DNA from: a virus
Length of the DNA stretch: 43,502 bases
Direction: 5' to 3' (one strand)
IMG/VR virus record: IMGVR_UViG_3300026518_000019
Span: 1-43,502 of that record
Part shown: one piece after another, positions 33,507 to 36,374 of the stretch
Layout of the letters: each line of letters opens with the position of its first letter
Numbering within the stretch: position 1 is the stretch's first letter
The notes under the pieces: model-generated
Told to the model about the DNA's origin: nothing
The model's input: the letters and a program-made list of their open reading frames with translations, nothing else
The model's database searches: none
Position numbers and translations under genes: made by a program

Positions 33507-36374
33507 ATGGCTCTTCCTGGAATCGATGTTACAATTGAAGATCGTGCATTAGTGCTTCCTGTTACAGCATCTGGTCGTTCCGCATATATCACTATTTTAA
33601 GTGACCGTGGTCCGCACAATAGAGTTGTAGAGGTTACAAGTCTCGATCAATTTTATGAATTATTTGGCAAACCGGATTATGTTCGTACTGGACAACCTCA
33701 TTATCTAGCGGCTAAATTTTTGCAAAGGTCTAATAAACTATATGTGGTAAGGGCTGTTAAGCTCGATGACTCCACCTCTACAAATAACGCGCATATTGCA
33801 CATGCTACAATTTCTAAAAATACAACTACTTCCACGACTACGGAAACATACATTTTTACGAATGGTTCTAATACTATAACAGCAAGTGCAACTACTACGA
33901 CGACAGCGGCTGATAACACCACAGTTGGTGCCACCCCGAGTACTACTGTTACAGGTGCGCATACTAGCTCTGTTACAACTATTACAGTTGGTTCGACTAC
34001 TGGATTCAACACCGCTGGCACTATTAAAATTGGTACAGAGCAGATTACATATACTGGTGTAACTGCAACAACCTTTACAGGATGTACTCGTGGCGCCAAT
34101 GGTACAACGGCGGCATCCTATGCTGGTACAGAAGCTGTTACCGCTTTAAATGCTGTGGATGCTACACAAACTACCATTCCAGCAACCTCCACTACTGGTT
34201 TTCCAACTGCCGGTACGATTTTAATTGGAACTGAACAAATTACATACACTGGTACTACTGCAACATCTTTTACAGGGTGTACTCGTGGCGCAAATGCCAC
34301 AACTGCAGCGGTTCATAATGCATCTGATGCAATTTACGCGGCTTCTCAGCTCTCAGTAACGTCTACAACTGGATTCAGTTCTGCGGGTACGATTTTATTG
34401 GGTAGCGAGCAGATTACGTATACTGGTACTACAGCAACAACAATTACCGGTATTACTCGTGGTGCAAATAATACAACAATTGCGGCCCATGCTGCTTCTA
34501 CCACTGTAACCGAAAAAGCTCTAACCCCATCTCAATTAGCGGTTGGCGATTGGGTTGTACCTTCAAATGTTACAGATTTAACGTTAGCAAAACAAGTAAT
34601 TTCTGTTGATTCTACTCAAAGCTCTCTTACACTAAGTGGCGCTTGGACTGGCAGTACTACAGCTACTGCTTTAACCGTTAAATATTTTCAGCCTCTCTCT
34701 GTTACAACATCTGCTGCTGGTGATATTTCGCAATTGACAGAAACAACATATACATTTACAAACGGCTCTGTTACTGTGACAACTACTACAGCATCTACCG
34801 CTTCTGTTGGTGATTGGATAATTTCCGCTAACGACCATACAAATGAAGTATTGGCAGAACAGATTATTTCTATCAGTACTGATTTGAAAACACTCACTTT
34901 GAATAATCCATATAAAGGCACTACTTCGCCTGTTGCGGAAGGTGCGTATAAATTTAATACGGCTGGTGGTATTACAACTAAAAATAGTCTAAGTACTACA
35001 GCTACAGGTATATTATTCCATTTGTATGCATTAGGTACCGGTGCTTATTACAATGATATTATTGTTCGCGGTGTACGTAATTTATCCTATGAAAAAATGT
35101 ATACTGATAGCAATGGCAATGTATTATATCCTAATTTATTTGTAGATTTATATATTTATAAACAAAATAGCGATGGAACTGAGACCTTAATAGAAGGCCC
35201 TTGGACAGTATCATTAGTTAATACTATTAATAACTCTGTTGTTCGTGATATTAATTCTGGTTATGAATTATATTTGCCAACTGTTGTGAATAATAATAGT
35301 AAATATATTAATGTTATTGAAGGTGCAAATATTTCTGATTATATTCTGGATTCGAATGCAGCAGCATTGAGGGAATATACTGTTTCCTTATTAACAGCTG
35401 GTACCGTACCTAGTTCCGGGTTAGCTGGAATGAATGGTATTGGTTTGGGAGCTGGTGATGATGGTGTTCAATTTGACACACAAGGACGACTGAACATTAG
35501 CAACAGTTTGATTCAAGGAGTACTTGCTCAAGCTTATGCCGGTACTTTGACAAGCACAGATGGCACCATTGAACTTATTAACCAGTCTAAATATCCATGG
35601 TATGAATTTGATTATATCCTGGCTGGTGGTAATACTGCTGCGGTGCAAGCTAGTGCATTGTCATTAGCTGATAATCGTAGTGATGTAATGCTATTAGGGG
35701 ATACTGGAGTTTCCTCAACATCATCCGCGTCCGACCTTAGTTTGCGTCAAAATTCCGTTACTTGGAATTCATATAATGCAATGTTATATGTTCAGTATCG
35801 CGAAATATTCGATGTATTTACAGGTAGAAATATTAATATCACACCTGTCTATCATGCCATTGACCGTCATCTATTAGTAGATGCTCGCGATTGGATTGCA
35901 GAACCTGTTGCTGGTATTGAAAAGGGTGCTATTCAGGAGCCAATTACTCTTGCATATAGGGCTAACAATACTCAGCTTAGTGATCTTATTGATAATGAGA
36001 TGAATCCAACGATTGTTGAAACGCAAGGTAAGTATTTTATCCAGCAATTGACAACTTGGAAACGTCTATCTATTATGAAGAGAGCACATGCTGTTAAATT
36101 TATACATTATATCAAGAAGGAAATACCAAAACTTCTAAAAGATATATTACAGCATAAAGCTACTCCATATTGGATTGGTCAAGCTAGAGGTCGAATTGAA
36201 GGATTCATGAATCCATTCGTGGTTGGTTACTCTTCATCCGAGAGATTAACTGCTGTTACTAATTACAGTGTGGCTGTTAACTTTGATGAATTAAGATCCG
36301 AACTGCAAATTACATTAACTGTGAAGCCTATTCGGTCAATTGAACAAATCACAGTTTCAATTATTGTGGTATAA
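33507..36374 (+). CDS. Tail sheath protein (gp18-like) with large repeat insertion
   Basis: The product is 955 aa. The GTG at 33498 overlaps the AAGGAG box itself, so ATG 33507 (MALPGIDVTIED) is chosen. The sheath forms the contractile tail sleeve. The N-terminal about 100 residues (TASGRSAYITILSDRGP, FGKPDYVRTGQPHYLAAKFL, KLYVVRAV) and the C-terminal about 450 residues (FHLYALGTGAYYNDIIVRGVRN; late AVNFDELRSELQITLTVKPI) are sheath-like. Between them, residues about 110-480 are Thr-rich repeats: three GCTRG modules (150-338) and two VGDW modules (346-376, 434-465). The protein is about 300 residues longer than T4 gp18 (659 aa). The inserted part should project from the sheath surface. The tube gene follows 12 nt later. 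Confidence 0.85.
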   Translation: MALPGIDVTIEDRALVLPVTASGRSAYITILSDRGPHNRVVEVTSLDQFYELFGKPDYVRTGQPHYLAAKFLQRSNKLYVVRAVKLDDSTSTNNAHIAHATISKNTTTSTTTETYIFTNGSNTITASATTTTTAADNTTVGATPSTTVTGAHTSSVTTITVGSTTGFNTAGTIKIGTEQITYTGVTATTFTGCTRGANGTTAASYAGTEAVTALNAVDATQTTIPATSTTGFPTAGTILIGTEQITYTGTTATSFTGCTRGANATTAAVHNASDAIYAASQLSVTSTTGFSSAGTILLGSEQITYTGTTATTITGITRGANNTTIAAHAASTTVTEKALTPSQLAVGDWVVPSNVTDLTLAKQVISVDSTQSSLTLSGAWTGSTTATALTVKYFQPLSVTTSAAGDISQLTETTYTFTNGSVTVTTTTASTASVGDWIISANDHTNEVLAEQIISISTDLKTLTLNNPYKGTTSPVAEGAYKFNTAGGITTKNSLSTTATGILFHLYALGTGAYYNDIIVRGVRNLSYEKMYTDSNGNVLYPNLFVDLYIYKQNSDGTETLIEGPWTVSLVNTINNSVVRDINSGYELYLPTVVNNNSKYINVIEGANISDYILDSNAAALREYTVSLLTAGTVPSSGLAGMNGIGLGAGDDGVQFDTQGRLNISNSLIQGVLAQAYAGTLTSTDGTIELINQSKYPWYEFDYILAGGNTAAVQASALSLADNRSDVMLLGDTGVSSTSSASDLSLRQNSVTWNSYNAMLYVQYREIFDVFTGRNINITPVYHAIDRHLLVDARDWIAEPVAGIEKGAIQEPITLAYRANNTQLSDLIDNEMNPTIVETQGKYFIQQLTTWKRLSIMKRAHAVKFIHYIKKEIPKLLKDILQHKATPYWIGQARGRIEGFMNPFVVGYSSSERLTAVTNYSVAVNFDELRSELQITLTVKPIRSIEQITVSIIVV
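33840..34965 (+). repeat. Second repeated domain of the sheath (TNGS...VGDW), one copy interrupted
   Basis: Copy 2 is continuous, residues about 410-480: T(E)TTYTFTNGSVTVT, then VGDWIIS, AEQIISI and LKTLTLNNPYKG. Copy 1 has the same parts but split: TETYIFTNGSNTIT at residues about 113-127, then VGDWVVP, AKQVISV and SLTLSGAWTG at 346-382. The three GCTRG modules lie between the halves. Confidence 0.65.
33954..34520 (+). repeat. Three tandem GCTRG modules in the tail sheath
   Basis: Copies lie at 33954-34142, 34143-34337 and 34338 to about 34520. The pattern of each: TTITV.STTGF..AGTI.IG.EQITYTG.TAT.(F/I)TG.TRGAN.TTAA.HA. They are more similar to each other than are the baseplate copies at 10336-11208, suggesting more recent duplication here. 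The core nucleotide stretch around 'ITYTG' is also well conserved. Confidence 0.85.

Follow-up and report, generated by a model that had tools for sequence, protein, structure and literature searches.

A predicted six-stranded barrel module repeated in the tail sheath and a second virion-type protein of a tailed virus

The tail sheath gene described here encodes three similar units, and the same unit occurs three times in a second large protein of the same virus. This raises the question of what the unit is, how it came to be in both proteins, and what it might do on the virion. The window, that is the whole stretch of DNA analysed, is a viral record of 43,502 bases, with genes for terminase, prohead protease, major head protein and replicative helicase. 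The two genes and their module copies are as follows.

33507–36374, plus strand: tail sheath gene (ATG at 33507, 955 amino acids; the longest frame runs from a GTG at 33498)
33942–34160, plus strand: module copy S1 (profile match 33942–34118 plus the last strand; the copy modelled)
34152–34340, plus strand: module copy S2 (profile match 34152–34316)
34341–34511, plus strand: module copy S3 (profile match 34341–34490)
8635–11805, plus strand: large virion-type protein of 1056 amino acids (putative, unconfirmed baseplate assignment)
10345–10551, plus strand: module copy B1 (profile match 10345–10530)
10603–10803, plus strand: module copy B2 (profile match 10603–10782)
11002–11190, plus strand: module copy B3 (profile match 11002–11178; the most diverged copy)

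The sheath was identified from PHROG 19666 (tail sheath), which matches residues 671–957 at E 1e-25, together with Pfam Gp18_domIII_N at E 6.6e-5, which is below the cut-off for that family. The protein at 8635–11805 is matched by PHROG profiles solely via the module. The original prediction had called it baseplate-J-like, a label that the searches do not support: no match to Baseplate_J (PF04865) was found at E ≤ 10, and comparison with three cyanophage gp6 proteins gave a score of 28.4, where five shuffles gave scores of 12 to 34.

Six homologous copies in two proteins

The module is approximately 60–75 residues long and all six copies are in frame. A profile combining S1, S2 and S3 scored 118 bits against the 8635–11805 protein, with shuffles reaching at most −6 bits, and the reverse profile of the B copies scored 132 bits against the sheath, with shuffles reaching at most −30 bits (whole-sequence scores). 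The best single-domain scores were 49 and 65 bits, compared to shuffle maxima of 10 and 8. These values refer to 2000 composition-matched residue shuffles of each repeat region; the real scores lie far above them, so that the copies align beyond Thr/Gly composition and a low-complexity artefact is ruled out. The six copies are thus homologous, three in each protein as had been predicted.

Residues common to all six copies at fixed places are G, E, Y, T-G, R-G and T-T; the terminal TH of the motif proposed earlier is missing from some copies. The sheath repeats, previously placed from 33954 onwards, start slightly upstream at about 33942. The sheath copies are closer to each other (59–65% identity) than are the more diverged B copies (33–54%), as originally described, and with the copies hidden a comparison of the two carriers at E 1e-5 shows no similarity, in keeping with the description of otherwise unrelated proteins. 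A search of the virus's own record found exactly six copies, with no clear seventh among the stop-to-stop frames of at least 50 amino acids in the window.

We note that the sheath contains, 3′ of the three modules, a second and different pair of similar stretches (approximately 34527–34691 and 34791–34960), identified by eye, each with a VGDW motif. These resemble a VGD stretch in domain I of T4 gp18. Elsewhere in the window, the genes at 7610–8518 and 36387–37181, which are 28 kb apart, both have weak matches to phrog_21400 and possibly encode two related tail proteins.

Predicted fold and carriers of the module

The structure of S1, the one copy modelled singly, was predicted using an alignment of 83 rows of module copies, which includes 77 of the 118–119 copies from the viral loci described below, near-identical or gappy copies being left out. 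The model is confident (mean pLDDT 94, pTM 0.83) and comprises six strands together with a single short turn of helix. The module is therefore predicted to fold as a six-stranded β barrel, which in the model is compact and autonomous. Over the 83 rows E38 and R55 (model numbering) are invariant, and Y42, G31 and T51 are conserved at 95% or more by weight.

All six of the best-matching solved chains belong to virion proteins of phages, with Z scores of 8.1–11.0: the VP1 capsid protein, the JBD30 baseplate protein, a chain of the GP4 portal-tail complex, the Mystique tail tube, the Chi tail tip and the LKA1 tailspike. Next come chains of F1-ATPase at Z ≤ 7.7, within the range of common arrangements. 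As regards an Ig-type sandwich, the best among the matches listed are barrels in phage proteins and in F1-ATPase. Although the Chi and LKA1 proteins have a similar fold, a pattern search did not find the E..R-G..H signature of the module in them. Foldseek found no solved structure matching the S1 model at E ≤ 0.001, and 71 predicted viral proteins that did so. BFVD entry A0A2H4UVI4, a predicted protein of giant Bodo saltans virus, matches the module model with a TM score of 0.86 and 45% identity.

We then examined the occurrence of the module in phage and bacterial sequences. A scan of viral contigs gave at least 557 confirmed relatives, from which 80 loci were kept, containing 118 copies in 96 open frames. 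Within the parts examined, the cyanophages S-CAM1, S-H9-2 and DSL-LC02 have two or three copies in a protein of baseplate-wedge type, and the module is also found on 12 contigs from bacterial genomes, 9 of them titled as metagenome-assembled. When the module was hidden, 113 carriers (including the two proteins from the window) fell into 25 clusters, none of which could be joined to another at E 1e-5. The expectation of a domain common to unrelated virion proteins is therefore upheld, both by these clusters and by the confident model of S1, and we conclude that the module is a widespread, poorly catalogued family of add-on domains in tailed viruses.

The labels that PHROG and Pfam gave to nine of the carriers were, among others, tail protein, SU10-type adaptor (Pfam), tail fibre, ‘amidase’ and virion structural protein; phrog_5107 and phrog_3287 are among the carrier families, and several PHROG profiles include the module. 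In a carrier of the adaptor type, 315 residues long, 299 residues align on 235 profile positions. The surplus is the size of one module, which suggests that the extra length is a module insertion. Influenza haemagglutinins, matched by the module profile among solved sequences at E 0.027 or worse, were taken as chance. With a single module copy or with three as query, tblastn searches of phages gave no match, probably because of the low-complexity filter, while whole proteins were matched. We found no paper whose title or the start of whose abstract describes the sequence module, although this does not prove its absence from the literature.

Some carriers show further features. Several loci (L048, L049, L050, L051, L015, L016 and others) have neighbouring genes for an adaptor-type protein of about 315 residues and a phrog_5107-type protein of about 580 residues, with one module in each. 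The frame L059:341-2866 has a weak Pfam E1_FCCH match 5′ of its modules (E 0.00056, below the cut-off). The contigs L182 and L184, from Aneurinibacillus and Cohnella, each encode a protein of 496–497 residues with two module copies; that of L182 also matches phrog_2889, and the contig is likely to be a prophage.

The range of carriers bears on a possible role in host adhesion, in which the barrels bind weakly to surface carbohydrate and so lengthen the stay of the particle on the cell, as has been proposed for phage Ig-like domains. Carbohydrate binding by the modules would be possible. In favour of adhesion, tail fibres occur among the carriers, and one of these has CBM_5_12 repeats elsewhere in the same protein. 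However, two stretches of module sequence taken from the window matched no Pfam family, carbohydrate-binding or other, and the carriers also include the SU10-type adaptor, which functions at the head-tail joint. We regard adhesion as an unlikely main role, though the strongest of the alternatives considered here.

Copy history and position within the sheath

The module was found in none of 84 sheath frames from the 80 related loci, and a sheath core profile identified no sheath among the 96 module frames; a full-length sheath profile did match module frames, because that profile itself contains modules. The window sheath, with its three copies, is thus unusual within this sample, and the module is not generally needed in sheaths. 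Both this and the very large number of unrelated carriers would fit a module that is a mostly passive spacer or filler, a stable barrel inserted by recombination wherever it is tolerated and persisting with little specific function. Against this, the sheath copies retain 59–65% protein identity despite agreeing at only 12–14 of 29–30 four-fold sites, and the E and R residues are invariant across the alignment, implying selection at least on the fold. A mostly passive role seems a little less likely than adhesion.

The same four-fold sites indicate that synonymous positions between the sheath copies look saturated, which speaks against recent copying of the module between the sheath and the 8635–11805 gene within this genome. 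Such copying would fit the presence of three copies in each gene, and the fact that of the 82 other rows the nearest to both B2 and B3 is S2 (tied with B1 in the case of B2). Nevertheless, the nearest row to S1 is a copy in another virus, at 67% identity compared to 61% for S2; identities between S and B copies are just 31–51%; and a tree of the 83 copies, which is largely unresolved, groups neither the S nor the B set. The third-position GC content is 0.24 in the sheath modules and 0.22–0.25 in the rest of the gene, matching the genome, so that recent import by composition is ruled out. Recent copying within the genome is accordingly very improbable. The original suggestion that the module spreads among virion proteins holds across viruses, as seen in the 25 carrier clusters; direct transfer from sheath to baseplate is not favoured, given the closer outside copy and the apparently saturated synonymous sites.

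The position of the modules was assessed using an alignment of 44 sheaths, for which 43 of 55 non-redundant references were used and T4 gp18 was added. Direct scans found no relatives of the sheath core or of the 8635–10335 part of the second gene; alignment with named sheaths did recover sheath relatives. At low identity, residue 87 of T4 gp18 pairs with residue 87 of the window sheath, and residue 346 with residue 679, so that window residues 88–678 align to T4 gp18 88–345. The modules, at residues 146–328, therefore fall within the insert equivalent to T4 domains I and II, an exposed insert and the place of T4 domain I. A model of the 955-residue sheath had a pLDDT of 46, which is too poor for placing the modules, and their position thus rests on the low-identity alignment. 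The earlier description as a surface domain gains indirect backing from this placement, the sheath model itself being of no help, and we infer an outward position on the sheath. Such a position would also suit adhesion, and it has been hypothesised that extra sheath domains help adhesion (PMC9230969, in the part of the text available).

Our preferred explanation, to which we give about an even chance, is that the module is an accessory barrel facing outward on the sheath that braces or docks parts of the virion, and that its copies are old and under selection at the protein level. On this explanation an autonomous six-stranded barrel, as predicted, would have found its way into a large number of tailed-virus virion proteins that are otherwise unrelated. 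The sheath would have three such barrels in tandem, positioned away from the tube within the outward-facing insert that corresponds to domains I/II of T4 gp18. These barrels would offer a brace or docking surface to other parts of the virion, whether adjoining subunits of the sheath, fibres that are folded back or the baseplate. The barrels of the 8635–11805 protein would brace their own assembly likewise. The copies would be old and kept by protein-level selection, with no recent transfer between the two genes. The contacts of the barrels within the virion are conjecture. A bolder version, which we consider improbable, ranks the barrel among the main exchangeable docking domains of tailed viruses that have yet to be catalogued, with the sheath and 8635–11805 barrels joining their assemblies, either by contact between barrels or by way of fibres that are folded back; if so, the same module would tune when the tail contracts.

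Whichever role applies, a predicted fold is now available for a unit shared by many virion families that bear only the label ‘structural protein’. The module accounts for the links, via one short stretch, that profile searches make between virion proteins with no other relationship, and it provides a discrete piece with which to ask what optional sheath domains do.

Comparison with known virion domains

Among solved structures, chains of the Vibrio phage VP1 capsid, the Mystique tail tube and the GP4 portal-tail complex are top matches to the fold (Z 9.3–11.0), with 17–21% identity over the aligned part. A described parallel is the baseplate hub protein gp53 of JBD30 (8rk3 chain b), in which a barrel matches the S1 model with Z 10.5 and an rmsd of 1.9 over 76 aligned residues. 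The stretch matched, 477–559, agrees with hub domain VI, which according to the available part of PMC11445458 is a small barrel of six strands with a stabilising effect on the baseplate; the predicted module thus has the same fold as this domain. The order acidic/E ... R-G ... T ... H is in register with the module, and domain VI is weakly matched by the module profile (E 0.55, ranked first of 636 frames, with 2 of 1920 reported shuffles scoring as well). Unlike the window modules, the JBD30 barrel is a single, unrepeated copy in the hub of a siphophage, outside any sheath.

The parallel in location is with T4 gp18. Its domains I and II are described as solvent-exposed, and domain I as a six-stranded barrel that protrudes and that binds both the baseplate and the long fibres in their retracted state (PMC3004832, from the portion available). 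This is a barrel in an exposed sheath insert, in the same region as the window modules, with the likeness of fold taken from that description. T4 gp18 scored −0.0 bits against the module profile, with its best stretch outside domain I and no module signature, and the parallel is therefore one of place and described fold rather than of shown descent. T4 gp18 has one such domain, compared to three tandem modules in the window sheath.

Ig-like accessory domains of phages were reportedly described by Fraser et al. in 2006. Like the module, they are small, optional, and scattered over unrelated virion proteins; unlike them, the module has a predicted fold that matches six-stranded barrels best and has no Pfam match on the two stretches tested. 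A survey of 112 modelled sheaths found their extra domains, mostly Ig-like, to be located away from the tube, with adhesion or stability proposed for them (PMC9230969, as far as available), and domain shuffling in tail proteins has been reported (PMC10684548, in the part available). The wedge proteins of S-CAM1, S-H9-2 and DSL-LC02 have the same module two to three times, but in another carrier protein and with later copies that match less well. In cyanophage A-1(L), the available text of PMC10966104 describes an insertion domain of the wedge that holds a long fibre folded back along the sheath.
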